Shown: in pieces, positions 545 to 31,652 of the stretch | Numbering within the stretch: the first letter of the stretch is position 1 | Layout: each line of letters opens with the position of its first letter | Assembly (NCBI RefSeq): GCF_022532105.1 | Contig: NZ_CP092832.1 | Span: forward strand, 682,001-746,000 | DNA from: Flavobacterium sp. HJ-32-4 | GTDB lineage: Bacteria > Bacteroidota > Bacteroidia > Flavobacteriales > Flavobacteriaceae | Length of the DNA: 64,000 nt | Reading direction: 5' to 3' | Notes under the pieces: model-generated | The model's database searches: none | What the model saw: the letters and a program-made list of their open reading frames with translations, nothing else | Told to the model about the DNA's origin: nothing | Made by a program: the position numbers and the translations under genes

Positions 545-2443
545 ATGAGTGACAGCATCAAACACGAATGTGGCATTGCCCTTCTCCGGCTGAAAAAGCC
601 CCTTTCCTTTTACCGCGAGAAATACGGCTCGGCTTTTTATGGCATCAACAAGATGTACCTGTTGATGGAGAAACAGCACAACCGCGGACAAGACGGTGCC
701 GGATTCGCCTCGATCAAGCTTGACGTCGCGCCCGGCCAACGCTATATCAGCCGTGTGCGCTCGAACGACTCGCAACCGATACGCGATATCTTCGACCAGA
801 TCAACGACCGTATCAACGAAGCCATGGCGGAACGTCCGGATTATCAGGAAGACATGGCAGCCCTCAAGGCCGGTGTGCCTTATATAGGGGAATTGTTCCT
901 GGGCCACGTGCGCTATGGTACGTTTGGCAAGAACAGCATCGAAAGCGTACACCCGTTCCTGCGGCAAAACAACTGGATGCACCGCAACCTTATCGTCGCC
1001 GGTAACTTCAACATGACCAATGTAACCGAGCTGTTCAACAGCCTGGTCGAATTGGGTATGCATCCTAAGGAAATGGCCGACACCGTAACGGTGATGGAGA
1101 AAATCGGGCACTTCCTTGACGACGCGGTCGCCGATCTGTACCAGGAATGTAAGAACAACGGTTTGTCGAAACGCGAGGCTTCGGAAGTCATCGCGCAAAA
1201 GCTCGACATCACCCGCATCCTGAAACGCGCCTCAAGAGGCTGGGACGGTGGTTATGCGATGGCCGGTCTTTTCGGTCACGGAGATGCCTTCGTTTTCCGG
1301 GATCCGGCGGGTATTCGTCCGGCCTACTATTACGAGGATGATGAAATTGTGGTGGTGGCCTCCGAACGTCCGGTCATCCAAACGGTCTTCAACGTGCCGT
1401 TTGAGGCGGTGAAGGAACTTGGCCCCGGGAATGCCGTCATCATCAAGAAAAACGGTACGGTATCTGAAGAGAATATCATCACCCCGACCATCAAAAAAGC
1501 CTGTTCGTTCGAACGGATTTACTTTTCAAGGGGAAGCGATGCCGAAATCTATGAAGAACGCAAGCAGCTCGGCCGCCTTGTTTTCCCGGCCGTGATGGAT
1601 GCGGTGGAACAAGACATCGCCAACACCGTTTTCTCGTATATCCCGAACACGGCGGAAACGTCCTTTTTCGGGATGACAGAAGCCGCGCAGGGCTTCCTTA
1701 ATAAAAAGAAAAACAAGCTCATCCTCGACCAGCACCGCACCCTGACGGAAGCCGGACTCATGGAGATCCTGGCCGAGAAAGTGCGTACGGAGAAGATTGC
1801 CATAAAAGATGCCAAGCTGCGCACCTTCATCACCGAAGACAGCAGCCGCGATGACCTTGTCGCGCACGTGTATGATGTGACGTATGGCGTTATCAAACCG
1901 ACCGATAATCTCGTGATCATCGACGACTCGATTGTGAGGGGCACAACCCTGAAAATGAGTATCATCAAAATGATGGACCGCCTGCGGCCGAAACGCATCG
2001 TCGTGGTGTCGTCGGCGCCCCAGATTCGCTATCCCGACTGCTATGGCATCGACATGGCGAAGCTCGAAGGACTCGTGGCCTTCCGGGCGGCATTGGCGTT
2101 GTTGAAAGAACGGAACCTGTATCACATCGTCGACGAAGTATACCATAAATGCAAGCAACAGGAAAACCTGGCGGATGCCGAAGTGACCAACCACGTCACC
2201 GCCATTTACGCGCCGTTCACAGATACTGAGATTTCCGATAAAATCGCGGAAATGCTCCGTCCGGATGACATCCAGGCAGACGTAAAGATTATCTTCCAGA
2301 CCGTGGAAGACCTACACCGCGCCTGTCCGAAAAACCTGGGCGATTGGTACTTCACCGGCGACTATCCGACGCCGGGCGGGAACCGGGTGGTCAACCGCGC
2401 GTTCATGAATTTCTACGAAGGAAAAGACGCCCGCGCCTATTGA
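545..2443 (+). CDS. Amidophosphoribosyltransferase-like protein (PurF family, long Bacteroidota form)
   Basis: 632 residues. Class II glutamine amidotransferase domain at the N-terminus with the nucleophile Cys9 in MSDSIKHECGIA, and a phosphoribosyltransferase domain with the PRPP-binding motif VIIDDSIVRGTT near residues 457-468. By family it transfers glutamine amide nitrogen to PRPP, giving phosphoribosylamine for purine synthesis. It is about 120-160 residues longer than classical PurF; the long form is typical of Flavobacteriia. The start at 545 was chosen because it places the nucleophile near the N-terminus; the in-frame ATG at 491 would translate a GTTCAT repeat array. Whether it is the main PurF or a paralogue cannot be decided here. 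Confidence 0.85.
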   Translation: MSDSIKHECGIALLRLKKPLSFYREKYGSAFYGINKMYLLMEKQHNRGQDGAGFASIKLDVAPGQRYISRVRSNDSQPIRDIFDQINDRINEAMAERPDYQEDMAALKAGVPYIGELFLGHVRYGTFGKNSIESVHPFLRQNNWMHRNLIVAGNFNMTNVTELFNSLVELGMHPKEMADTVTVMEKIGHFLDDAVADLYQECKNNGLSKREASEVIAQKLDITRILKRASRGWDGGYAMAGLFGHGDAFVFRDPAGIRPAYYYEDDEIVVVASERPVIQTVFNVPFEAVKELGPGNAVIIKKNGTVSEENIITPTIKKACSFERIYFSRGSDAEIYEERKQLGRLVFPAVMDAVEQDIANTVFSYIPNTAETSFFGMTEAAQGFLNKKKNKLILDQHRTLTEAGLMEILAEKVRTEKIAIKDAKLRTFITEDSSRDDLVAHVYDVTYGVIKPTDNLVIIDDSIVRGTTLKMSIIKMMDRLRPKRIVVVSSAPQIRYPDCYGIDMAKLEGLVAFRAALALLKERNLYHIVDEVYHKCKQQENLADAEVTNHVTAIYAPFTDTEISDKIAEMLRPDDIQADVKIIFQTVEDLHRACPKNLGDWYFTGDYPTPGGNRVVNRAFMNFYEGKDARAY

Positions 2444-2640
2444 TCGTCGCCGTTGCGAAAAAGGTGTTTCGCGCACCTCAAGATTGCTAAAAAGGTGAAA
2501 AACAGGGCAGAATACGCATGGATTTTGCAGTACATCGAATTTATAGGTCGTTCATCTAAAAGTTTTGACGGAAAAGTACTATCGCCATAGCTTTGGTTCA
2601 CCATGGAATTAGTAGGTTAAGTTTATGGTAGATTTGGGGC

Positions 2641-2672
2641 AAAAAGGGTGAAAGTAACATTTCACCTTTTTT
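2641..2672 (+). terminator. Intrinsic terminator, distal to the PurF-like gene
   Basis: A-rich GTGAAA / TTTCAC hairpin with flanking AAAAAGG / CTTTTTT, closing on a T tract. It lies about 200 bases after the stop codon, so the transcript would have a long 3' untranslated end. Confidence 0.6.
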
Positions 2673-2741
2673 ATTTTATATCGGTTCCGATTTTGGCGAC
2701 ATTACCCAGTAGCCATCGCCCCACCGCCCGAAAAAAGGCAT

Positions 2742-2768
2742 AAAAAAACGGCCAGGGGTTCCGGCCGT
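2742..2768 (-). terminator. Intrinsic terminator of the OmpA lipoprotein
   Basis: ACGGCC / GGCCGT stem. On the minus strand it is followed by a run of seven T residues (plus-strand A's 2742-2748). It sits 22 bases beyond the stop of the OmpA lipoprotein gene. Confidence 0.8.
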
Positions 2769-2790
2769 TCTTCTGAAGAAAAAACACAAT

Positions 2791-3753
2791 TTAAAATTCG
2801 TTCAGCATCTTTGAGATCTCGTCGAGTTTCGGCGTCAGGATGATTTCGATGCGGCGGTTCTTCGCCTTTCCTTCCGCTGTTTCATTTGAGGCAATTGGGG
2901 CATATTCACTACGCCCGGCCGCTGTAAGATTCGCTTTTACTACCCCTTTGTTTTCGGTAAGGATGTTGACCACCGCCGTCGCCCTCTTGGTCGACAAATC
3001 CCAGTTATTTTCAACCGACCCAACCGATCCGGCGAACTTCTGGTCGTCGGTATGGCCTTCGATCAAGACACCGATGTCGGGGTTCTGCGCCAATACTTTG
3101 GCAACTTCCACCACCGCTTTGCGTCCTTCAGGGTTCACCGTCCAGCTTCCGGTTTGGAATAACAGTTTGTTCTCCATCGACACATATACTTTGCCATTCT
3201 TTTGTTCGATGGTAAGTCCTTTGCCTTCAAAGGCGTTGAGTGCCTTCGACAACGTTTCCTTCAACTTCTTCATCGCCGCATCTTTCTGCGACATCATGCT
3301 CTCCAGTTCGGCGAGTCGTTGCGAACTGCTTTCGAGGTCGGCCTTGAGTTTGTTAAGGCGTTCCTGTTCGGCGGCAAGGGCCTTTTCTTTTGCCTCGAGT
3401 TGTGCCAACAGCGTGCGGTTTTTATCCATATTCGACTTGAGCGCGTCGTCGCTGTTCTTCTCAAGTGCCGCATACGACGACTGCAACGTCTTCAGGTTGC
3501 TGTTGGCCGCTGCGAGGTCGGCCTGCAATTTGTCACGTTCGGCCTTTAGCTTGTCGTGTTCTTTTTGCAGATTGGCATAGTTGAGGTCGAGTTGGTTTTT
3601 GGTTTGCGTCAGGTCTTCGAGGTCGTCAGAGAGTTTGCGGTTCTCTTTCTTCAACTCGGCAAACTTGTTTTCGAGATCGGTGTAGACCTTTTTCGAAACG
3701 CAGGAAGTCGTCAGTGCGGCGATCAGCAGCAGTGCGGAAACGTTCTTAATCAT
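2791..3753 (-). CDS. OmpA-family lipoprotein with long coiled coil
   Basis: 320 residues. The N-terminal lipoprotein signal MIKNVSALLLIAALTTSC puts a lipobox Cys at residue 18. A heptad-rich, Lys/Glu/Leu-rich coiled coil covers roughly residues 25-175. An OmpA/MotB peptidoglycan-binding domain covers about 200-310 (IEGHTDDQ, the NRRIEI end motif). It probably links the outer membrane to the cell wall through a periplasmic rod. The start at 3753 was chosen over the in-frame ATG at 3786 because it begins the signal peptide directly. It lies 29 bases downstream of the exonuclease III gene on the same strand and may be co-transcribed with it. Confidence 0.88.
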   Translation of the reverse strand: MIKNVSALLLIAALTTSCVSKKVYTDLENKFAELKKENRKLSDDLEDLTQTKNQLDLNYANLQKEHDKLKAERDKLQADLAAANSNLKTLQSSYAALEKNSDDALKSNMDKNRTLLAQLEAKEKALAAEQERLNKLKADLESSSQRLAELESMMSQKDAAMKKLKETLSKALNAFEGKGLTIEQKNGKVYVSMENKLLFQTGSWTVNPEGRKAVVEVAKVLAQNPDIGVLIEGHTDDQKFAGSVGSVENNWDLSTKRATAVVNILTENKGVVKANLTAAGRSEYAPIASNETAEGKAKNRRIEIILTPKLDEISKMLNEF

Positions 3754-3782
3754 AGGAGGGTTATATAAGTACTTTATATTTA

Positions 3783-4547
3783 TCATGCTTCTATTTCGGC
3801 CATCACCGGACAGTGGTCGGAGTGCCGTGCTTCCGGCAGGATGACAGCCCGGCGGAGGCGGTGTTCAAGTTCGCGGGCGACCAATATATAATCGATACGC
3901 CAGCCTTTGTTATTGTTGCGGGCATTCGCGCGGTAGCTCCACCACGAATAATGATGCGGGTCTTTGTTGAAATGTCGGAAACTGTCAACGAACCCACTAT
4001 TGATGAAGGCGTCAAGCCAGGCGCGCTCGGCCGGCAGGAAGCCCGAAACGTTGGCATTCCGGATCGGATCGTGTATGTCAATGGCCTGATGGCAGATGTT
4101 ATAGTCGCCGCAGATCACCAAATGCGGAATTTCGGCCCGCAATTGTGCCACATAAGCATGGAAATCGTCCATATACATAAACTTATGGTCGAGCCGGTCC
4201 ATGTTGGTGCCGGAAGGAAGATAGAGACTCATCACCGACACGTCGTCAAAATCAACACGGAGGTTCCGCCCTTCGAAATCCATGTGTTCGATACCGGTTC
4301 CAAAAACGACGCGTTGGGGCTTTATTTTGGACAGGATGGCGACGCCGCTGTAGCCTTTCTTCTGCGCCGGATACCAATAATGATACGGATAACCCGCCTT
4401 TTCAAATTCCGCCACCGGCACCTGGTCGGGCGTGGCTTTGATTTCCTGCAGACAGATGACATCGGGGTCGGCTGACACCAGCCAGTCGAGAAACCCCTTT
4501 GTGAGCGCGGCGCGGATGCCGTTTACATTGTAGGAAATGATCTTCAA
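3783..4547 (-). CDS. xth: Exodeoxyribonuclease III (AP endonuclease)
   Basis: 254 residues, the full length of the exonuclease III/AP endonuclease family. The N-terminus MKIISYNVNGIRAA, the metal-binding Glu in CLQEIKA, the catalytic Asp/Asn in GDYNICH, and the closing SDHCPV motif are all present. It cleaves DNA 5' to abasic sites and removes 3'-blocking groups in base excision repair. A TAnnTTTG box lies 28 bases upstream. Confidence 0.95.
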   Translation of the reverse strand: MKIISYNVNGIRAALTKGFLDWLVSADPDVICLQEIKATPDQVPVAEFEKAGYPYHYWYPAQKKGYSGVAILSKIKPQRVVFGTGIEHMDFEGRNLRVDFDDVSVMSLYLPSGTNMDRLDHKFMYMDDFHAYVAQLRAEIPHLVICGDYNICHQAIDIHDPIRNANVSGFLPAERAWLDAFINSGFVDSFRHFNKDPHHYSWWSYRANARNNNKGWRIDYILVARELEHRLRRAVILPEARHSDHCPVMAEIEA

Positions 4548-18717: not shown

Positions 18718-18939
18718 AATTGAAAGATTGAAGGATTAAAAGATTGAAAGATTTGCAACCACTTCTTTTGTGTCCTTTGATGTTACCAAAAGAAGCGGTG
18801 TTGATCCAAATGTCTTTTCGAAATTAACCGAAGAGTTTCTAATTCTATTACCTACTAAGCAGCACACAAAAGGAATGATTCCGGGTTTAAGGACCACCTG
18901 TCAAATCTTTAAATCATTGAATCTTTAATCCTTTAATTA
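18718..18939 (+). repeat. Hairpin element E1: octamer-repeat arms, no four-helix-bundle gene (sufA/sufB junction)
   Basis: Left arm 18718-18755 is built of ATTGAAAG-type 8-base units (ATTGAAAG, ATTGAAGG, ATTAAAAG, ATTGAAAG). Right arm 18902-18939 is largely their reverse complement and ends 2 bases before the sufB ATG. The ~145-base interior has no four-helix-bundle gene. It contains CTTCTTTTG (18762-18770), which can pair with CAAAAGAAG (18787-18795), while the overlapping CTTTTGTGT (18765-18773) can pair with ACACAAAAG (18864-18872): two mutually exclusive hairpins. Interpreted as a non-autonomous or decayed relative of E2-E4. Confidence 0.75.
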
Positions 18940-18941
18940 CG

Positions 18942-20390
18942 ATGAGCAAATATACCGAAGACGATCTCAAGGTCGAACTTGAGAACAAAGAATACGAGTA
19001 CGGCTTCTATACGGATATAGAATCCGATACGCTCCCTATAGGCCTGAATGAAGACATCGTGCGTGCGATCTCCCGAAAAAAGGAGGAGCCCGAATGGATG
19101 ACCGAATGGCGCTTGGAGGCGTTTCGGGCGTGGTCGGAAATGACCGAGCCGGAATGGGCCAACGTCCATTACGAAAAACCCGATTTCCAGGCTATATCCT
19201 ACTATTCGGCGCCGATGAAAAAGCCGAAATACGAAAGCCTTGACGAGGTCGATCCGGAATTGCTCGACACCTTCAAAAAGCTCGGCATCTCGATTGACGA
19301 ACAAAAGAAACTCGCAGGAGTGGCGGTAGATATCGTTATGGACTCCGTTTCTGTAGCAACAACCTTCAAGAAGACACTGGCGGAGAAAGGCATCATTTTC
19401 TGTTCCATTTCGGAAGCCATCAAAGAACATCCGGAACTCGTTCAGAAATATATCGGTTCAGTGGTGCCGCAGCGCGATAACTTCTACGCGGCGCTCAATT
19501 CAGCCGTCTTTTCCGACGGTTCGTTCTGCTACATCCCGAAAGGGGTTCGCTGCCCGATGGAACTGTCGACCTACTTCCGCATCAACCAGGCGGGCACTGG
19601 CCAATTTGAACGCACTTTGGTGATTGCCGACGAGGGGAGCTATGTCTCTTACCTCGAAGGCTGCACCGCCCCGAGCCGCGACGAGAACCAATTGCACGCT
19701 GCGGTGGTCGAACTCATCGCACTCGACAATGCCGAAATCAAGTATTCAACGGTGCAGAACTGGTATCCGGGGAACAAAGAAGGCAAAGGCGGTGTCTATA
19801 ACTTCGTCACCAAACGCGGCTTGTGCGAAACCAATGCCAAGATATCCTGGACACAGGTTGAAACGGGTTCTGCCGTTACCTGGAAATACCCTTCCTGTAT
19901 CCTGAAAGGCGATAACTCGGTCGGAGAATTCTATTCGATCGCCGTTACCAACAACCACCAACAGGCCGATACGGGCACCAAGATGGTACACCTGGGGCGT
20001 AATACCAAGTCGACCATCATCTCGAAAGGGATCTCGGCCGGCAAGTCCCAAAACAGCTATCGTGGACTCGTGCAGATTGGCCCGCGGGCGGAAAATGCCC
20101 GGAACTTCTCGCAGTGTGATTCCCTGTTGATGGGCAACAACTGTGGCGCGCATACCTTCCCTTACATTGAAAGCCGCAATACCACGGCGAAGATCGAACA
20201 CGAAGCGACCACCTCTAAAATCGGTGAAGACCAGATTTTCTATTGCAACCAACGCGGTATCGATACCGAGAAGGCCATCGCGCTCATCGTCAACGGCTTC
20301 AGCCGCGAGGTGTTGAACAAACTGCCAATGGAGTTCGCGGTGGAAGCGCAGAAGTTGTTGGAGATCTCGTTGGAGGGGTCGGTTGGGTAA
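18942..20390 (+). CDS. sufB: Fe-S cluster assembly protein SufB
   Basis: 482 residues, normal SufB length. Scaffold component of the SufBCD complex on which new Fe-S clusters are built in the cytoplasm. The conserved core is seen as [19 protein letters not shown] and [14 protein letters not shown], with a C-terminal Cys/Glu-rich region typical of SufB. The start codon lies 2 bases after the right arm of element E1, and the stop codon directly abuts the left arm of E2. Confidence 0.97.
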
Positions 20391-20822
20391 TTTGGAGATT
20401 TGAAGATTTGGAGATTTGAAAATGGAAAACCGCGAGAACATCATTGTCAAACTATCCTTCGAGTTCGCGCTCGAAATCATCCGCCATTGCGGTGTATTAC
20501 AGGATAGCCGGCATTTTGTGATTGCAAACCAGCTCCTAAAATCCGGCACGAGCATCGGCGCGAACATCCGCGAGGCACAAAACGCCGAAAGCAAAGCCGA
20601 CTTCATACACAAATTCAAGATTGCCGCCAAAGAAATTGAAGAGACATTCTACTGGCTGGAACTTTGCGCCCTGTCAGAAGGCTTTCCTCCTTCGGGCATC
20701 CTTTCCTCCAACCTGCAAACCATATCGCGAATCGTAAACAAAATCATCATATCATCGAAGGCAGGAGTTTGAAAACGGGAACCGCCATTTTCAAATTTCC
20801 AAATCTTCAAATTTTCAAATTG
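20391..20822 (+). mobile_element. Hairpin element E2 carrying a four-helix-bundle gene (sufB/sufC junction)
   Basis: Left arm 20391-20424 starts at the base after the sufB stop and is made of 8-base units ATTTGGAG, ATTTGAAG, ATTTGGAG, ATTTGAAA followed by ATGG. Right arm 20785-20822 carries CCATTTTC, then the reverse-complement octamers TTTCAAAT-like, ending 5 bases before the sufC ATG. The arms can form a stem of about 35 base pairs with the four-helix-bundle gene in the loop. No target duplication or transposase is visible; mobility is inferred from the repeated architecture. Confidence 0.7.
20422..20772 (+). CDS. Four-helix-bundle protein (23S rRNA intervening-sequence protein family)
   Basis: 116 residues. 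The motif [20 protein letters not shown] and the following [20 protein letters not shown] are typical of the four-helix-bundle family first seen inside 23S rRNA intervening sequences, which also shares its fold with the Avd accessory protein of diversity-generating retroelements. Molecular function is unknown; RNA binding is suspected. The ATG at 20422 is inside the left repeat arm. The TTG two codons earlier is less likely. It lies between sufB and sufC on the same strand and is clearly not a Suf component by family. Confidence 0.88.
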
Positions 20823-20827
20823 AACGA

Positions 20828-21574
20828 ATGCTTGAAATTAAGAACTTACACGCAAAAGTAGAAGATAAAGACATCCTCAAAGGCATCAACCTAACCGTGA
20901 AAGCCGGTGAGGTGCACGCCATCATGGGGCCGAACGGATCGGGTAAATCGACACTTTCCGCGGTGATTGCCGGGAATGAGAAATACGAAGTGACTGAAGG
21001 GGAAGTATTCCTCGACGGAGAAGACATCTCGGAAATGGCGCCGGAAGAACGCGCCCATAAAGGTGTTTTCCTTTCGTTCCAATATCCGGTAGAGATACCG
21101 GGCGTATCGGTTACAAACTTTATGAAAACGGCCATCAACGAAACCCGTAAAGCCAACGGGAAAGAAGAGATGCCCGCCAACGAAATGCTGAAGCTCATCC
21201 GCGAAAAATCGGAATTGCTTGAAATCGACCGGAAATTCCTGTCGCGCTCGCTCAACGAAGGGTTTTCCGGCGGTGAGAAAAAACGGAACGAAATCTTCCA
21301 GATGGCGATGCTGGAACCGAAGTTGGCGATCCTTGATGAAACCGATTCCGGACTCGACATCGACGCGCTGCGGATCGTGGCCAACGGCGTCAACAAACTG
21401 AAAAGCGACGACAACGCCATCGTGGTCATCACCCACTACCAGCGCCTACTCGACTATATCGTGCCCGATTTCGTGCACGTCCTTTACAACGGAAAAATCG
21501 TAAAGTCAGGCGGTAAGGAACTGGCGTATGAACTGGAAGAAAAAGGATACGATTGGATTAAGGCTGAGAATTGA
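20828..21574 (+). CDS. sufC: Fe-S cluster assembly ATPase SufC
   Basis: 248 residues, an ABC-type ATPase of the SufBCD scaffold. Walker [10 protein letters not shown] (about 34-42), the SufC-type signature [10 protein letters not shown], and Walker [16 protein letters not shown] hydrolysis drives the conformational change needed for cluster assembly. It is flanked on both sides by hairpin elements (E2 upstream, E3 one base after the stop). Confidence 0.97.
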
Positions 21575-21575
21575 T

Positions 21576-22100
21576 CAGTCGAAAGTCGAAAGTCAAAAGT
21601 TGAAAGTCGACTTTGCGTCCAAGGTCCTGTCGGAGACCGAAAACCCGACACCTTCTATACACGCCAAACAGACAATTTATGGGAACCATTCGATCATTCG
21701 AAGACATGCTCTCGTGGCAGAAAGCACGAGCGTTCAACAAGAAGATTTATGATGTCTCGTTATCCGAGAATTTTGGAAGAGACTTCGAGTTGGGAAGACA
21801 AATACGGAGAGCGTCGCTTTCAATAACGTCGAACATAGCGGAAGGCTTTGAACGACGAACTGATAACGAATTTTTGTTCTTCCTTAATGTTGCGAAAGGA
21901 TCGATCGGAGAAGTCAGGTCGCAATTGTACCTCGCTTCCGATCTCGGATACATAAACAAGACACAATGTGACAACCTATTGGCGGAAGCCACAGAGATAT
22001 CAAAAATGCTTGCAGGATTTATGAAATACCTTGAAACGAAGTCCGGAAAACGATAGTCTCTTTTGACTTTCGACTTTCGACTTTCGACTTTCGACTCAAC
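21576..22100 (+). mobile_element. Hairpin element E3 carrying a four-helix-bundle gene (sufC/sufD junction)
   Basis: Left arm 21576-21612 reads as heptamers AGTCGAA, AGTCGAA, AGTCAAA, AGTTGAA, AGTCGAC. Right arm 22060-22100 reads TTTGACT then four TTCGACT units, the exact reverse complement, and ends 1 base before the sufD ATG. The unit and its length (7 bases) differ from E2 (8 bases). The loop carries a four-helix-bundle gene unlike the one in E2. Confidence 0.72.
21679..22056 (+). CDS. Four-helix-bundle protein (23S rRNA intervening-sequence protein family), second type
   Basis: 125 residues from the ATG at 21679 (MGTIRSFEDMLSWQKARAF). The conserved stretch RRASLSITSNIAEGFERR and FLNVAKGSIGEVRSQLYLA place it in the four-helix-bundle family, but in a different branch from the E2 protein. 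The upstream in-frame start at 21613 would translate through the repeat arm and is rejected. Function unknown; see element E3. Confidence 0.88.
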   Translation: MGTIRSFEDMLSWQKARAFNKKIYDVSLSENFGRDFELGRQIRRASLSITSNIAEGFERRTDNEFLFFLNVAKGSIGEVRSQLYLASDLGYINKTQCDNLLAEATEISKMLAGFMKYLETKSGKR

Positions 22101-22101
22101 T

Positions 22102-23418
22102 ATGAACTTAAAAGAAAAACTCCTATCCTCTTTCATCGCATTCGAAGAACACGTCGATACCGACGCGTCTTTGCACGAAGTGCGCATGGCGGCACTGAAG
22201 AACTTCGAAGAAAAAGGATTTCCCTCCAAAAAAGAGGAAGCCTGGAAATATACGTCGCTCAACAGCGTCCTGAAGACCGATTATTCGATTTTCCCGAAGA
22301 ACGAAAATGCCGTTGAACTCAACGATGTACGGAAGTACTTCCTGCATGAGATCGACACCTACAAGGCCATCTTTGTAGACGGTGTTTTTGCGTCGTTCCT
22401 GTCGTCGACCACGCACGACGGACTCGATGTTTGCCTCATGTCATCCGCGCTGACGAAACCGAAATACAAGCTGGTCATCGACCATTATTTCAATAAAATC
22501 GCCAGCCAGGACGAGACCCTTACATCGCTCAATACCGCCTTTTCGATCGAGGGGGCTTACATCAATATTCCAAAGAACACCGTAGTTGAAAAGCCGATTG
22601 AAATCATCAATTTCTCGACCGGTAAAGAGCACGCGCTGTTGCTGCAGCCGCGCAACCTGGTGATTGTCGGTGAAAACGCCCAGGTGCAGATCATCGAGCG
22701 CCACCAGAGCCTCAACGGCCATCCGGTGCTCACGAACGCCGTGACCGAGATCTTTGCACACAAATACGCCAACGTCGATTACTATAAAATCCAGAACGAC
22801 CTGCTGAGCGCGAACCTCGTCGACAACACCTATATCTCTCAGCACGACCACAGTGTGGTATCGGTACATACGTTCTCGTTCGGGGGCAACCTCACCCGCA
22901 ACAACCTCAACTTCTATCATTTCGGCGAACGGATCGATAGCACGCTGAAGGGCATCACCATCATCGGCGAGAAACAACATGTCGACCATTACACCCTCGT
23001 GCACCATGGCGCGCCGAACTGCGAAAGCCACCAAAACTACAAGTGTATCGTGTCAGACAGCGCCACCGGTGTCTTCAATGGCAAGATATACGTCGAGAAA
23101 GAAGCGCAGAAAACCGACGCCTTCCAGCAGAACAACAACATCCTGCTGAGCGATAAAGCCACCATCAACGCCAAACCGCAGCTCGAAATCTTCGCCGACG
23201 ACGTCAAATGTTCGCACGGCTGCACCATCGGCCAACTCGACGAAAGCGCGATGTTCTATATGCGCCAGCGCGGTATTCCCGAAAAAGAAGCCAAAGCCTT
23301 GCTGTTGTTCGCGTTCTCAAACGAAGCCATCGAAAGCATCCGCATTCCGGCGCTCAAACAGCGTATCACGAAACTGATCGCTACGAAATTGGGGGTAAGT
23401 CTGGGATTCGACCTGTAA
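22102..23418 (+). CDS. sufD: Fe-S cluster assembly protein SufD
   Basis: 438 residues. Right-handed beta-helix SufB/SufD family protein and partner of SufB in the SufBC2D complex; the C-terminal KCSHGCTIGQLDE motif with the conserved His is present. The ATG at 22102 is 1 base after the right arm of E3; starting at 22063 would translate the heptamer array. No sufS or sufE follows: the next gene converges from the other strand. Confidence 0.94.
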   Translation: MNLKEKLLSSFIAFEEHVDTDASLHEVRMAALKNFEEKGFPSKKEEAWKYTSLNSVLKTDYSIFPKNENAVELNDVRKYFLHEIDTYKAIFVDGVFASFLSSTTHDGLDVCLMSSALTKPKYKLVIDHYFNKIASQDETLTSLNTAFSIEGAYINIPKNTVVEKPIEIINFSTGKEHALLLQPRNLVIVGENAQVQIIERHQSLNGHPVLTNAVTEIFAHKYANVDYYKIQNDLLSANLVDNTYISQHDHSVVSVHTFSFGGNLTRNNLNFYHFGERIDSTLKGITIIGEKQHVDHYTLVHHGAPNCESHQNYKCIVSDSATGVFNGKIYVEKEAQKTDAFQQNNNILLSDKATINAKPQLEIFADDVKCSHGCTIGQLDESAMFYMRQRGIPEKEAKALLLFAFSNEAIESIRIPALKQRITKLIATKLGVSLGFDL

Positions 23419-23438
23419 GGGTGTAGGGCAGCTAATCC

Positions 23439-23561
23439 GGCTGTCCGCTCTAGCTTTTTCGGTCCGTCCGCCTATTGCAACGGCGCCGTCGAGCTTCCTG
23501 CGGTCGCTGCCGTTGCCGGCAACAGCACGGTCGCCCCTTCAAAAGGCTGCCGCTTCCATCC
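23439..23561 (+). repeat. 3'-flank repeat element, copy A (downstream of sufD)
   Basis: Bounded by GGCTGTCCGCTCTAGCTTTT (from 23439) and AAAAGGCTGCCGCTTCCATC (from 23541). Both blocks recur in copy B (26299-26407), in the opposite strand orientation and with a different middle. The middle here contains the perfect palindrome GTTGCCGGCAAC. It starts 20 bases after sufD in sufD orientation. No open reading frame. The flanks 23419-23438 and 23562-23613 hold nothing recognised. Confidence 0.7.
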
Positions 23562-23613
23562 GGGCTGCGATCGTTTCTCGCTTGAAATGTAGGTGTAATT
23601 TACGTCCCGTCCA

Positions 23614-23991
23614 CTAGGGTTGGGCATAGGTAGAAACGTATGTTTCCAACGCCTCGCGCTCTTCGGCCGTCATCGCCTTCGTGATCGCGAAATTTGTCTT
23701 CATCACCGCGTATTTGTCCGGATCCACAATGGGGTCTGCCTCCTCGTTTAAAAACGCCGCCATAGCGCCTTTTTTGCCCTTATAGGCATTGGCAATGGCT
23801 ATAATCGAAGGGCCGACTGACGTCTTATCCGGCAAGTGGCAGGCGACACAGTTTCCTTTTCCTTCAAAAATCTCCTTGCCGAGGGCTTCCGGAGTGACTG
23901 CCTCGGCCTGAGCGTCACTGCTGCCGGACTTCGGTTCTTTTCCGCACGCGACCAGCGCCAGCGTCAATACGGTTAACAGACACTTTCTCAT
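23614..23991 (-). CDS. Cytochrome c-like lipoprotein
   Basis: 125 residues. Lipoprotein signal MRKCLLTVLTLALVAC with the lipid-modified Cys at residue 16, a short linker, then a class I cytochrome c domain with heme motif CVACH and a distal Met in KYAVMKTNF. A small membrane-tethered electron carrier of the periplasm. The start codon overlaps the hemB stop (ATGA), so it is translated with hemB; a product that needs heme is thus made with a heme-synthesis enzyme. Confidence 0.9.
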   Translation of the reverse strand: MRKCLLTVLTLALVACGKEPKSGSSDAQAEAVTPEALGKEIFEGKGNCVACHLPDKTSVGPSIIAIANAYKGKKGAMAAFLNEEADPIVDPDKYAVMKTNFAITKAMTAEEREALETYVSTYAQP

Positions 23992-24980
23992 CGGTTCAGC
24001 AATATAGCGGCCTCCTTGGCAAAATAGGTCGAAATCAGGTCGGCACCCGCGCGTTTGATACAATACAACTGCTCGATCATGATTTTGTCGTGGTCGAGCC
24101 AGCCCCGTTCGGCGGCGGCTTTGATCATGGCATATTCGCCCGACACATGAAAAACCGATACGGGCACGTTCACCGCGTTCTTCACTTCACGTACAATGTC
24201 GAGATAAGCGATTCCGGGCTTCACCATGACGATGTCGGCACCTTCTTCTACGTCCATCAGCGCTTCTTTGATGGCTTCAATGCGGTTGGCGTAATCCATC
24301 TGGTAGGTCTTCTTGTCTTTCGGAATGTCCTGTGAGTCGACCGGTGCCGAATCGAGTGCATCACGAAACGGACCGTAGAACGACGAGGCATACTTCGCGC
24401 TGTAGCTCATGATGCCCACGTTGTGGTAGCCATTCTCTTCAAGTGCCGTCCGTAGAGCCAACACACGTCCGTCCATCATATCGCTGGGCGCCACGAAATC
24501 GGCACCCGCTGCGGCGTGTGAGAGGGCCATGCGCACCAGGGCATCGTTGGTCGCATCATTGGCGATGTCACCGTTGGCGATAATGCCATCATGACCGTAG
24601 ATGGAATACGGATCGAGCGCCACATCAGGCATGACGATCATCCCCGGTACAGCGTCTTTGATGGCACGAATGGCGCGTTGCATGAGTCCGTCCGGGTTCC
24701 AGGCTTCCTTACCGGTGTTGTCTTTTAGGCTGTCGTCCACCTTAACGTAGATATTGACGGCCTTGATCCCAAGGTTCCAGAGTTCTTTGACCTCTTTTAC
24801 GGTGAGGTCAAGCGACCGCCGGTAAATACCCGGCATGGATGGTATCTCGGATTGGTACCCGTTCCCCTCTGCAATAAACATCGGGAACATAAAATCGTTC
24901 GGTGTCAGGTGGGTTTCCCTGACGATGGAACGGATGGCGTCGTTGGTGCGGAGGCGGCGGCCTCTTTGGAGAGGAAACAT
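23988..24980 (-). CDS. hemB: Delta-aminolevulinic acid dehydratase (porphobilinogen synthase)
   Basis: 330 residues. Joins two 5-aminolevulinate molecules to porphobilinogen. The two active-site lysines are in SYSAKYASSFYG and VMVKPGIAYLD. The metal-binding region between residues ~115-135 (DVALDPYSIYGHDG) lacks the Cys triad of zinc enzymes, so it is probably the Mg-type. Located after element E4 in the minus-strand heme cluster. Confidence 0.97.
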   Translation of the reverse strand: MFPLQRGRRLRTNDAIRSIVRETHLTPNDFMFPMFIAEGNGYQSEIPSMPGIYRRSLDLTVKEVKELWNLGIKAVNIYVKVDDSLKDNTGKEAWNPDGLMQRAIRAIKDAVPGMIVMPDVALDPYSIYGHDGIIANGDIANDATNDALVRMALSHAAAGADFVAPSDMMDGRVLALRTALEENGYHNVGIMSYSAKYASSFYGPFRDALDSAPVDSQDIPKDKKTYQMDYANRIEAIKEALMDVEEGADIVMVKPGIAYLDIVREVKNAVNVPVSVFHVSGEYAMIKAAAERGWLDHDKIMIEQLYCIKRAGADLISTYFAKEAAILLNR

Positions 24981-24989
24981 AGTGTTTTT

Positions 24990-25359
24990 AGTTTACGGTG
25001 GACAGTTTTCAGTTGACGGTTTTCAGTTGGCAGTTCAAGGTGCTGAAGTAGCTACTTCCTTTCGGTTTCATTAATTTTTCGGGTTAGTGCGGCTAGCATT
25101 TTCCTGACTTCCATGATGTCTTCCGAATATCCGAAGCCTTCCGCGATGTTGGCAGGTATTGAAACGTCGCACGATTAATTTGAGACGTTAAGTTAAACAT
25201 TTCAGACTTCGGGAAATTAGCGGTGAGCGCGTACGTTTTGAGTACAAACGCATGAGCTTTTTCCCAAACCTTATATTTCTTATAATCGATCATTACATTG
25301 CCATTCTACGTTCCGTATACAGTTAACTGTAAACCGTCAACTGTAAACTATCCACCCTC
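24990..25359 (-). mobile_element. Hairpin element E4 with a broken four-helix-bundle gene (hemF/hemB junction)
   Basis: Plus-strand left arm 24990-25040 is made of heptamers CAGTTTT, CAGTTGA, CGGTTTT, CAGTTGG, CAGTTCA. The right arm 25315-25359 is its reverse complement with scattered changes (CAACTGTAAACC units). The right arm overlaps the last codons and stop of hemF (25348-25350), and the left arm ends 9 bases from the hemB start. The loop holds a decayed four-helix-bundle gene. Same architecture as E2 and E3, third repeat unit. Confidence 0.7.
25052..25293 (-). pseudogene. Four-helix-bundle protein gene, frameshifted and internally deleted
   Basis: Starts at 25293 with MIDYKKYKVWEKAHAFVLKT and follows the family up to QINRAT. 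One T is then missing from a T run (about 25170): the reading frame slips and ends early. In the +1 frame the family motif SIPANIAEGFGYSED continues, followed directly by a C-terminal-like MEVRKMLAALTRKINE, so about 50-60 residues of the middle helices are also gone. Both lesions mean no functional protein. Confidence 0.82.
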
Positions 25360-26265
25360 AACTCCAAGCCAGTCCACCGGCCGCTGCAATACCGCAACTA
25401 ATCGGGCTTCTTCGGAGCCCGGCTGGGGCTGGTGGTCATACACCCACTGCACATGCGGCGGAAGGCTCATCAGGATACTCTCGATGCGCCCATTGGTACG
25501 CAAGCCGAAAAGCGTTCCCTTGTCGTGCACGAGGTTGAACTCGACATAGCGTCCCCGGCGGATTTCCTGCCAGGTGCGTTGCTCGCTTGTATACGGCATG
25601 TTTTTCCGCTTCTCTGCGATCGGACCATAGGCAGACAGGAAACTATTACCCACGTCGGTAACGAAGGCATACCAATCATCCATGGTGCGGTTTTGATCTG
25701 CCCGGCAATAGTCGAAAAACAGGCCCCCAACGCCGCGCGCTTCGTGTCGATGGGCGTTCCAGAAGTAGGTGTCACACTGTTTTTTGTATTTCGGATAGAA
25801 CGCCGCGTCATGGCGGTCACAGGCGTCTTTGCAAACGTGGTGAAAATGCGCGGCGTCTTCGTCGAAGAGGTAGTATGGGGTCAGATCCTGCCCGCCCCCA
25901 AACCAGCTGTCGACCACGTTTCCGGCTTCGTCATACATCTCAAAATAGCGCCAATTGGCATGCACGGTGGGCACCATCGGATTTTTGGGATGTAGCACGA
26001 GTGAGAGTCCACACGCGAAAAAATCAACATCCCCAACACCGAACATTTTCTGCATCGGCTCGGGTAGTTTGCCGTGTACACCGGAAATATTCACCCCGCC
26101 TTTCTCAAAGACAGCCCCGTTCTCGATGACACGGGTGCGGCCGCCACCGCCTTCCGGACGGTCCCAAAGGTCTTCGCGGAAACGGGCCTGGCCGTCAATG
26201 GCTTCGATGCCGTTGGTGATAGTATCCTGGAGCTGGTGGATATAATCGAAGAAACGTTCTTTCAT
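25348..26265 (-). CDS. hemF: Oxygen-dependent coproporphyrinogen III oxidase
   Basis: 305 residues, full length. Converts coproporphyrinogen III to protoporphyrinogen IX using O2. Family motifs GGGRTRVIENG, VPTVHANWRYFE, SWFGGGQDLTPYY and RRGRYVEFNLVHDKGT are all present. Its stop codon lies inside the right arm of element E4, so the last residues (VEGG) are partly encoded by repeat sequence. About 190 bases, containing repeat copy B, separate it from hemE. Confidence 0.97.
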   Translation of the reverse strand: MKERFFDYIHQLQDTITNGIEAIDGQARFREDLWDRPEGGGGRTRVIENGAVFEKGGVNISGVHGKLPEPMQKMFGVGDVDFFACGLSLVLHPKNPMVPTVHANWRYFEMYDEAGNVVDSWFGGGQDLTPYYLFDEDAAHFHHVCKDACDRHDAAFYPKYKKQCDTYFWNAHRHEARGVGGLFFDYCRADQNRTMDDWYAFVTDVGNSFLSAYGPIAEKRKNMPYTSEQRTWQEIRRGRYVEFNLVHDKGTLFGLRTNGRIESILMSLPPHVQWVYDHQPQPGSEEARLVAVLQRPVDWLGVEGG

Positions 26266-30590: not shown

Positions 30591-31490
30591 ATGCTTGTCA
30601 ATACATACGATAAAAATGTCGCTATGGGTTCAGAAGAGACTATAAAAATTGAAAATGATTTTACGCTGTTCCGTTTCCAGAATGACGGAGCCCAGCCTTT
30701 TCGCGTCCTGAAGGAAATTGCTACCGGCCTCATACAGTTTCATTTTTGTCTGAAAGGAAAGGCGAAATTGGTGTTCAATGAAGGCTCGTACGCGTTAGAT
30801 TTACGCGAAGAGAAAGCCTTCCTTCTCTACAATCCGCAGAAAGAATTACCGATGAACCTCGAGTTGGCACCGAATTCATGGGTCATTTCCGTGGTGGTGT
30901 CGATCAAGAAATTCCACTCGCTTTTTTCGGCCGAAGCCGACGTGATTCCCTTCCTTTCCGCTGAAAACCGCGACCGGAAGTACTATGACGAAAGTGACAT
31001 CACCCCGTCGATGTCAATCGTATTGAGCCAGTTGTTCCATTACCATCTGCATCCGTCCATCAAAAACCTGTATTACAAAGGGAAGGGATACGAATTGCTG
31101 AGCCTCTATTTCAACCGCACCGAAGATCCGGATGCCGAACAGTGTCCGTTTCTTATCGACGAAGAGAACGTCCTGAAAATCCGAAAAGCCAAAGACATCG
31201 TAATTGCCCATATGGCAGAACCACCCGGATTGCAGGAACTCGCCGACCAGGTTGGCCTTACACTGAAAAAACTGAAAATGGGTTTTAAGCAGGTGTATGG
31301 CGACAGCGTCTACAGTTTTCTCTTTGATTACAAGATGGAATACGCCCGAAAATTACTCGAAGATGGCACCCATAACGTCAACGAAGCCGGCCTGCGCATC
31401 GGCTACAGCACCGCAAGCCACTTTATTTCGGCCTTCAAAAAGAAATTCGGCACAACGCCGAAGAAGTACTTGATGTCGGTGGGGAGTTGA
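30591..31490 (+). CDS. AraC-family transcriptional regulator
   Basis: 299 residues from 30591; alternatives are 30555 and 30624 (MGSEETIKIEN). Residues ~1-180 form a sensor domain with a beta-rich cupin-like start (FHFCLKGKAKLVFNEG). The C-terminal ~95 residues carry the double helix-turn-helix of AraC proteins (GLQELADQVGLTLKKLKMGFK and NEAGLRIGYSTASHFISAFK). It lies between and divergent from hemA and upstream of hemH, so control of heme genes is likely by position; the ligand is unknown. Confidence 0.88.
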   Translation: MLVNTYDKNVAMGSEETIKIENDFTLFRFQNDGAQPFRVLKEIATGLIQFHFCLKGKAKLVFNEGSYALDLREEKAFLLYNPQKELPMNLELAPNSWVISVVVSIKKFHSLFSAEADVIPFLSAENRDRKYYDESDITPSMSIVLSQLFHYHLHPSIKNLYYKGKGYELLSLYFNRTEDPDAEQCPFLIDEENVLKIRKAKDIVIAHMAEPPGLQELADQVGLTLKKLKMGFKQVYGDSVYSFLFDYKMEYARKLLEDGTHNVNEAGLRIGYSTASHFISAFKKKFGTTPKKYLMSVGS

Positions 31491-31563
31491 GGGTTGGGGG
31501 TTCATGGTTCTTGGTTCATAGTTCTTAGTTCTTAGTTCATGGTTGAGAGTTGAGGGGTGAGAG
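31484..31563 (+). repeat. Solo heptamer array (GGTTCAT/AGTTCTT type), 80 bases
   Basis: Starts in the stop codon of the AraC gene. Units in order include GGTTCAT, GGTTCTT, GGTTCAT, AGTTCTT, AGTTCTT, AGTTCAT, GGTTGAG, AGTTGAG. It is the longest array in the window but has no reverse-complement arm before hemH at 31653, and no four-helix-bundle gene. The unit resembles the solo array at 493-527. Confidence 0.72.
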
Positions 31564-31652
31564 TGAACTACATGAATCCGGCGGCGCTTATCCTAATCTC
31601 GTATCTAGTTTGATTTTTATACTGACCTCTAACCACCGAAAATAGCTCATTT

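Follow-up and report, generated by a model that had tools for sequence, protein, structure and literature searches.

Within a 64,000-nucleotide (nt) stretch of the Flavobacterium sp. HJ-32-4 genome (hereafter the window; positions 682001–746000 of a 3.53-Mb single contig), four gene junctions between 18718 and 25363 each hold two inverted arms built of tandem 7- or 8-nt units. The junctions are sufA/sufB, sufB/sufC, sufC/sufD and hemF/hemB. All four were read directly and follow one plan, as the original prediction from this DNA had proposed: the tandem arms are reverse complements of each other and, at three of the four junctions, enclose an intact or broken gene for a four-helix-bundle protein (two PF05635 genes and one remnant). 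We refer to the two arms with what they enclose as a cassette. The features, in window coordinates, are as follows.

18718–18755, + strand: 5′ arm at sufA/sufB; 8-nt units of the type ATTGAAAG
18756–18901, + strand: interior of the sufA/sufB cassette, without a gene; no four-helix-bundle match in the 224-nt gap
18902–18937, + strand: 3′ arm at sufA/sufB; ends 4 nt upstream of the sufB ATG (18942)
20389–20425, + strand: 5′ arm at sufB/sufC; 8-nt units of the type ATTTGGAG/ATTTGAAG; contacts the sufB stop codon and the gene start
20422–20772, + strand: four-helix-bundle gene at sufB/sufC; 116 amino acids; PF05635 over model positions 2–83 of 106 only, TIGR02436
20785–20821, + strand: 3′ arm at sufB/sufC; stem predicted with the 5′ arm
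21577–21610, + strand: 5′ arm at sufC/sufD; 7-nt units AGTCGAA
21679–22056, + strand: four-helix-bundle gene at sufC/sufD; 125 amino acids; PF05635, TIGR02436
22060–22096, + strand: 3′ arm at sufC/sufD; 7-nt units CTTTCGA; stem predicted
24990–25035 (also delimited as 24990–25028), − strand: 3′ arm at hemF/hemB as read along the hem operon; 9 nt before the hemB start codon; stem predicted
25057–25297 (outer limits approximate), − strand: broken four-helix-bundle gene at hemF/hemB; co-oriented with hemF and hemB
25325–25363, − strand: 5′ arm at hemF/hemB as read along the hem operon; overlaps the 3′ end of hemF

Both open genes match TIGR02436 and PF05635 (72 and 120 bits; cut-off 33.8). PF05635 is the only Pfam match in the two intact cassettes, and there is no transposase gene inside them. 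At the hem junction a PF05635 match survives at 25168–25281 (model positions 1–38), and 25134–25164 is an inverted match to the sufC/D gene. Operon and cassette gene run in the same direction at all three junctions with a gene or remnant. Inverted-arm scores at these three were 54, 59 and 53, compared with a 99th percentile of 24 and a maximum of 28 in 1000 random placements elsewhere in the window; the sufA/B arms scored 38, with a maximum of 22 in 100 shuffles. The sufB/C arms are 37 nt long and 92% complementary. When the four junctions were folded as RNA, no shuffle folded equally well (n = 100, 100, 200 and 100; z = −5.2, −5.7, −3.2 and −5.3), and at all four the 3′ arm lies at most ~10 nt from the next start codon. 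Two further 7-nt arrays of the window, at 493–524 and 31480–31564 (GTTCATC; GGTTCAT and relatives), have no inverted partner within 900 nt, the leftward search for the former being shortened by the window edge; they are perhaps remnants of one arm.

The repeat-armed cassette is real and general. The original prediction had staked itself on arms being reverse-complementary at other four-helix-bundle loci, and we found such arms in all 12 copies of the same genome, in 125 of 151 Bacteroidota copies and in 69 of 80 copies from many phyla (p ≤ 0.05 for the latter two). The genome itself has 12 PF05635 matches, one of them a remnant, and each has inverted tandem arms scoring above the maximum of 200 shuffles (28 versus 24 in the weakest copy, L001). 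PF05635 was detected in 31 of 40 relatives and, at E 0.001, in 232 of 296 Bacteroidota genomes drawn from the phylum, 220 of them over the cut-off. The 151 copies comprise the 12 just described, 29 loci from relatives, 80 of 98 other places in relatives (taken in list order, the 18 weakest omitted) and 30 loci from the phylum search (the best of their list); the p ≤ 0.05 counts for these groups are 12 of 12, 21 of 29, 73 of 80 and 19 of 30, and 109 of the 151 beat all 100 dinucleotide shuffles. Many copies are orthologous. Merging them by any flank homology, a loose rule, gave 65 site clusters, the largest with 24 members, and in 53 clusters at least half of the members had arms at p ≤ 0.05. 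In a matched control with 200-nt flanks, arms were present at 124 of 149 genes and at 18 of 294 positions shifted by 1000 nt.

The multi-phylum sample consists of the best 80 of 584 loci on named genome contigs and includes Cyanobacteria, Acidobacteria, Proteobacteria, Planctomycetes, Chloroflexi, Clostridia, Gemmatimonadetes, Fibrobacteres, Bacteroidetes and others; 60 of the 80 beat all 100 shuffles. One locus (L236; PF05635, 139 bits) comes from an archaeal metagenome bin, an assignment that is possibly wrong. Plasmids carry cassettes as well: a match was present in 27 records, and of the 12 copies examined 11 outscored every one of 200 shuffles, and the other (L208) fell narrowly below the shuffle maximum (29 versus 30). 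Two cassettes on annotated cyanobacterial plasmids (L203 and L205) lie antisense to both neighbours, which are ribonucleotide reductase genes or secretion ABC-transporter-type genes. Carriage by phages was considered and rejected, a phage collection giving no match at E 0.001.

The arms share a common anatomy. In Bacteroidota the repeat is significant in 119 of 125 arm pairs, with a period of 7 nt in 89 and 8 nt in 26; among the 69 armed loci from many phyla, 56 have a period of 7 and 9 a period of 8. The median is 4.6–4.7 units per arm, with 149 of 250 arms holding between 4 and 6 units and a tail above 15. Read inward, the arms contain more G than C in 111 of 125 cases. In a phase-free model the heptamers share an AG(T/G) core (3.01 bits versus a null of at most 2.06 for 47 arrays from many phyla; 2.52 versus at most 1.84 for 65 Bacteroidota arrays), and octamer units also exceed their nulls in the few arrays available (18 and 7); these nulls comprise just 10 column permutations, fitted with fewer restarts than were used for the real arrays. 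The 5′ arm starts −10 to +15 nt from the upstream stop codon in 88 of 113 cases, and a cassette with an intact gene measures ~430–530 nt. Beside one intact cassette (L005, positions 2409–3072 of that locus) lie three long AACTGAG-type arrays (about 31, 11 and 9 copies); the third is in inverted orientation relative to the first, and the DNA that separates them has no four-helix-bundle match.

Cassettes mostly follow the direction of the genes around them. In 151 of 165 testable Bacteroidota copies the gene runs in the same direction as both flanking reading frames, which were called by length only, and 5 of 165 copies are antisense to both; 11 more copies lie at contig edges, and some genes are counted in two overlapping loci. 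Co-orientation on both sides holds for 8 of 11 copies in the genome itself, for 52 of 63 clusters and, across many phyla, for 48 of 72 copies, with 8 of 72 antisense to both. At six loci of the genome ten neighbours were examined and nine had Pfam hits: B12-dependent methionine synthase, methylenetetrahydrofolate reductase (MTHFR), urocanase, a pyridine nucleotide oxidoreductase, CNNM/CorC, Obg, a mevalonate decarboxylase-like protein, homogentisate dioxygenase and a glyoxalase-fold protein. A four-helix-bundle gene is also listed beside guanylate kinase in F. columnare (PMC5524665).

The original prediction had further singled out a concentration in suf and hem. All four paired cassettes of the window do lie there; the two single arrays lie elsewhere, and the suf part owes something to shared ancestry. 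We surveyed the suf junctions of the 30 genomes with the best SufB matches, this genome included, and called a gap under 60 nt bare. Cassette presence differs between species at these junctions, a variation that the prediction had also called for. At sufA/B, 13 junctions were bare, 4 held the gene and 13 held 78–224 nt and no gene, with arms above 100 shuffles in 1 of 4 gene-holding and 4 of 13 gene-less gaps. At sufB/C, 13 were bare, 5 held the gene, 6 held 76–158 nt without it and 6 held 502–904 nt of other content, with arms above shuffles in 5 of 5 gene-holding and 2 of 6 short gene-less gaps. The six long gaps (L073, L074, L083, L092, L100 and L101) contain no four-helix-bundle match and represent another insertion at that junction.

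Near sufB we counted 16 gene copies in 13 of the 30 genomes, leaving out weaker fragments, one of them a truncated piece in L101. Grouping at 60% identity gives 6 groups; the number falls to 5 if the sufC/D copy of this genome, cut by the locus end in the grouping, is placed at full length (67% identity to L097). Two of the groups are represented at A/B and three at B/C. The sufB/C protein has its nearest relative in another species, at the sufB/C junction too (82%). Local duplication as the source of the suf/hem concentration was considered and rejected: the proteins encoded at sufB/C and at sufC/D resemble each other only distantly, and each is most closely related to proteins of other species. 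The 24 same-genus relatives hold 108 genes, of which 7, from 6 genomes, are no more than 4 kb from sufB; ~0.3 would be expected, and shared ancestry inflates the excess. A Riemerella plasmid record carries the gene with arms between an Fe-S assembly accessory gene and sufB. In one genome (locus L080) three four-helix-bundle genes surround sufB, at A/B, at B/C and further downstream, the first and third being 67% identical. The suf concentration reflects inheritance together with repeated use of the same junctions by several element lineages.

The intervening sequence (IVS) of 23S rRNA is the known home of this protein family, and the cassettes had been predicted to be the same type of element. 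An Rfam scan covered 20 loci, 19 of the 80 multi-phylum loci and one plasmid locus. On plasmid 2 of Azospirillum lipoferum, a PF05635 gene (2501–2830, 112.5 bits) lies inside a bacterial large-subunit rRNA match (1292–4490) on the same strand, and this 23S copy has heptamer arms of GACGGAT/GACAGAG type (score 47 versus a shuffle maximum of 24). The IVS of Coxiella burnetii likewise has a PF05635-type gene in its loop and terminal inverted repeats with a 28-bp stem; its 5′ region contains tandem GACAGAT heptamers whose number differs between strains, and it is excised by RNase III (PMC4990558). From the one copy read here and the one in print, the operon cassette appears to be the same kind of element as the rRNA IVS, in line with the prediction. 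The two settings differ in that the Coxiella IVS sits in rRNA helix 45 and its gene is reported to decay (PMC4990558), whereas the window cassettes are flanked by protein genes, and purifying selection acts on the intact copies found at shared sites. The window copies sit in suf and hem junctions, outside 23S rRNA, and are therefore the same kind of element and not an rRNA IVS proper.

PF05635 genes were also found in three cas loci (L204, L207 and L208): in two cyanobacteria the gene lies between cas6 and cas4, and in the remaining locus it separates cas10 from a cmr3-family gene. Arms were above shuffles in two of the three and barely short in the third (29 versus 30). In print, 18 such 23S_rRNA_IVP genes of the same protein family have been listed in cas loci and discussed in terms of a CRISPR-Cas-associated function (PMC3936711), whereas the arms at two of our three copies suggest insertion. 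For these genes, insertion of a cassette fits better than a CRISPR role.

We then asked what the cassettes reveal about mobility and selection. Homologous cassettes exist at non-homologous sites, with similarity stopping near the outer arm edges (for example, L028/L030 and L145/L148). The clearest case is a difference at one site: in a pair of loci from two close species (L104/L053), the sequence is 97–100% identical upstream and mostly 91–99% downstream, with one 100-nt stretch at 80%. Identity is 0.98 and 0.95 in the flanks, 0.74 in the gene and 0.66 in the arms; the difference spans the stop codon to the next start codon, and gene and arms change together. The gene and arms of L104 are nearer to those of L022 (0.89 and 0.81), though the L022 flanks are more distant. 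Either replacement on the spot or import by recombination may account for this difference. The ratio of nonsynonymous to synonymous substitution rates (dN/dS) was 0.03–0.28 in 18 pairs at shared sites, which were hand-picked from the similarity list, some sharing members; in 7 of them dS exceeds 1 and is unreliable. One copy had a stop codon. By this measure, the four-helix-bundle protein is under purifying selection. Being small, with inverted ends and movable in principle, the cassette resembles a miniature inverted-repeat transposable element or an insertion sequence; it differs from both in having no transposase gene, in having tandem arrays as ends, and in that no target duplication was found. 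A Y1 transposase (PF01797) was rejected as a partner needed for keeping the cassettes, as it had no match in two genomes with 8 and 5 copies (G004 and G025).

We consider it somewhat more probable than otherwise (roughly 0.55) that the cassettes are copies of one compact mobile element, a four-helix-bundle gene closed by inverted arrays of about five units. Two solved relatives, 2gsc and 2rld, have five chains each, and Xcc0516 is described as a homopentamer (PMC4990558). With about five units per arm and a five-membered ring, we propose that each subunit reads one unit. The cassette would be expressed by read-through from the host operon, and the pentamer would bind the arrays at the DNA ends, one subunit per unit; such binding would account for the inverted layout, for an AG core that is polarized inward and for the lack of G·U bias described below. 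The bound ends could be brought together for occasional excision and for insertion between stop and start codons, with the enzyme presumably supplied in trans. The arms can also pair in the transcript, where RNase III may cut as published for the Coxiella IVS.

The original prediction had emphasized an RNA hairpin, and the arms do fold as RNA, but their mismatch pattern shows no G·U bias. A selected RNA stem would be expected to favour G·U pairs. Arm mismatches of the G·U type in sense RNA and of the mirror A·C type numbered 168 and 176 in Bacteroidota (p = 0.71), 119 and 143 in many phyla (p = 0.16) and 90 and 75 with one locus per cluster (p = 0.28). Selection on an RNA stem as the main force was rejected, as the strand asymmetry of mismatches gives it no support. 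The lack of G·U preference and the polarity of the core favour unit recognition in DNA ends; the arms thus resemble arrays of recognition sites more closely than an RNA stem under selection. An element acting at the RNA level, with arms that pair in mRNA or rRNA, excision by RNase III, and spread or tolerance since the flanking RNA works in pieces, would suit the sense placement in operons (151 of 165), the stable predicted stems, the 23S copy on the rRNA's own strand and the RNase III excision of the Coxiella IVS (PMC4990558). We regard it as unlikely in view of the nearly equal mismatch counts and of the copies that run against both neighbours (Bacteroidota, 5 of 165; many phyla, 8 of 72; and the two annotated cyanobacterial plasmid cases). 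A little less likely again is a local regulator, in which the protein binds the arms in operon mRNA (for instance, the 3′ arm by the downstream start) and controls the next gene, the cassette being kept for its benefit. Purifying selection at fixed sites (dN/dS 0.03–0.28), the 3′ arm within ~10 nt of the next start at the four window junctions and the 5′ arm abutting the stop codon agree with such a role; the variety of hosts (suf, hem, methionine synthase/MTHFR, urocanase, homogentisate dioxygenase and Obg neighbourhoods, cas operons) does not, nor do the many related species without a cassette (at each of two suf junctions, 13 of the 30 genomes are bare) and the common gene-less gaps (13 and 6 of 30 genomes), although arms above shuffles persist in just 4 and 2 of those gaps.

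Avd of diversity-generating retroelements is a related four-helix-bundle protein, and a retroelement aided by a reverse transcriptase in trans, as Avd serves those systems, would draw on this kinship: there is a match to NF033474 (7.6e-4), 4 of 7 copies have sub-threshold bAvd-like hits, the relation of the family to Avd has been noted (PMC10053308), and the Bacteroidota insertions follow transcripts. Such a retroelement is nonetheless improbable, with no RVT_1 match in the window genome despite its 12 PF05635 matches and none in 13 of 32 genomes with a PF05635 match (several of them drafts); for the same reason we rejected a reverse transcriptase as a need for keeping cassettes. The Avd-type scores also stay below their cut-offs, 19.8 versus 80 for the Avd model with the sufC/D protein and at most 34.1 versus 40 for the bAvd-like model. 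That the arrays are neutral simple-sequence repeats lying beside these genes by chance would agree with the two window arrays that lack partner and gene and with arms occurring without a gene, but the matched controls (18 of 294 versus 124 of 149 at genes), the inverted layout, the common core and its polarity make it very improbable.

Several observations count against the preferred reading, a mobile element with ends read by its own protein. Cassettes at non-homologous sites are at most ~81% identical among the loci compared, and recent transposition is therefore not seen. A target duplication could not be defined, the bare suf junctions being short and diverged and the L053/L104 pair having no empty site. 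The phylum sample with the best copy per genome has arms at p ≤ 0.05 in just 19 of 30 copies, and a half-split test finds them in just 1 of 4 gene-holding sufA/B gaps (5 of 5 at sufB/C). The match between five units and five subunits is purely numerical, and ~40 of 250 arms (41 with the 7–8 bin) have at least 7 units. The outer upstream flank is G-rich as well (G 4280 versus C 3228). Exact register lies slightly above the prediction from shared units (Fisher 3e-6, only 24 of 184 at p ≤ 0.05), which tells against the reading because a pure binding-site model needs none. Arm similarity follows protein similarity weakly in non-orthologous pairs (rho 0.12). Finally, in a total taken over 13 of 17 orthologous pairs the arms are no more conserved than the spacers (identity 0.81 versus 0.80, with 0.86 for outer sequence), a total that omits L053/L104 with its differing cassettes and four pairs whose first member lacks significant arms; summed over all 17 pairs the values are 0.82 for arms and 0.81 for spacers, and in three of the four omitted pairs the arms are more alike than the spacers or equal to them.

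Three related ideas were dropped along with these tests. Strong exact-register pairing rested on a first permutation test biased by trimmed arms, and the corrected test was much weaker. Greater constraint on the arms than on their surroundings was hinted at by L153/L157 and L060/L063 and was not upheld over the orthologous pairs. A dependence of arm type on protein subtype proved weak, with a rise only above 60% identity (50 pairs, median similarity 0.35 versus 0.18–0.22) and one clear case.

Heptamer arrays have been described before. TAACTGA arrays are mostly intergenic tandem 7-nt units found in Beggiatoaceae, Cyanobacteria and Bacteroidetes (MacGregor 2015, PMC4679880), and the main text of that paper does not contain "four helix", "S23" or "23S rRNA". 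The reverse complement of TAACTGA is an AGT-type unit, as in the cassette arms; the TAACTGA arrays are direct, with one inverted set in the main genome studied (PMC4679880), whereas cassette arms are inverted. As tandem 7-nt intergenic units, with some arrays of 8 nt, the window arms are heptamer arrays in the same sense. The short heptamer arrays of cyanobacteria go by the name STRR. Among the open-access papers listed in literature searches, none has a title or abstract that describes inverted heptamer arms around these genes in operons, a weak negative since most subscription papers and all preprints lie outside that scope.

The evidence points to a widespread, so far barely described kind of mobile element. 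A broader proposal, which we put forward tentatively, is that it forms a distinct class across bacterial phyla, and perhaps in an archaeon, with ends of about five heptamers read by a five-membered ring, one subunit per unit, and no transposase of its own; its copies or debris would then include rRNA IVSs, the "CRISPR-associated" IVP genes and many of the heptamer arrays seen in Cyanobacteria and Bacteroidota. If this is true, the PF05635 family, named only for its rRNA home, would gain a genomic identity, and rRNA IVSs, heptamer arrays and IVP genes in cas operons would become one puzzle. It would also call for caution in inferring function from the neighbours of four-helix-bundle genes, and it would offer a cheap test of a ring-and-repeat recognition code.

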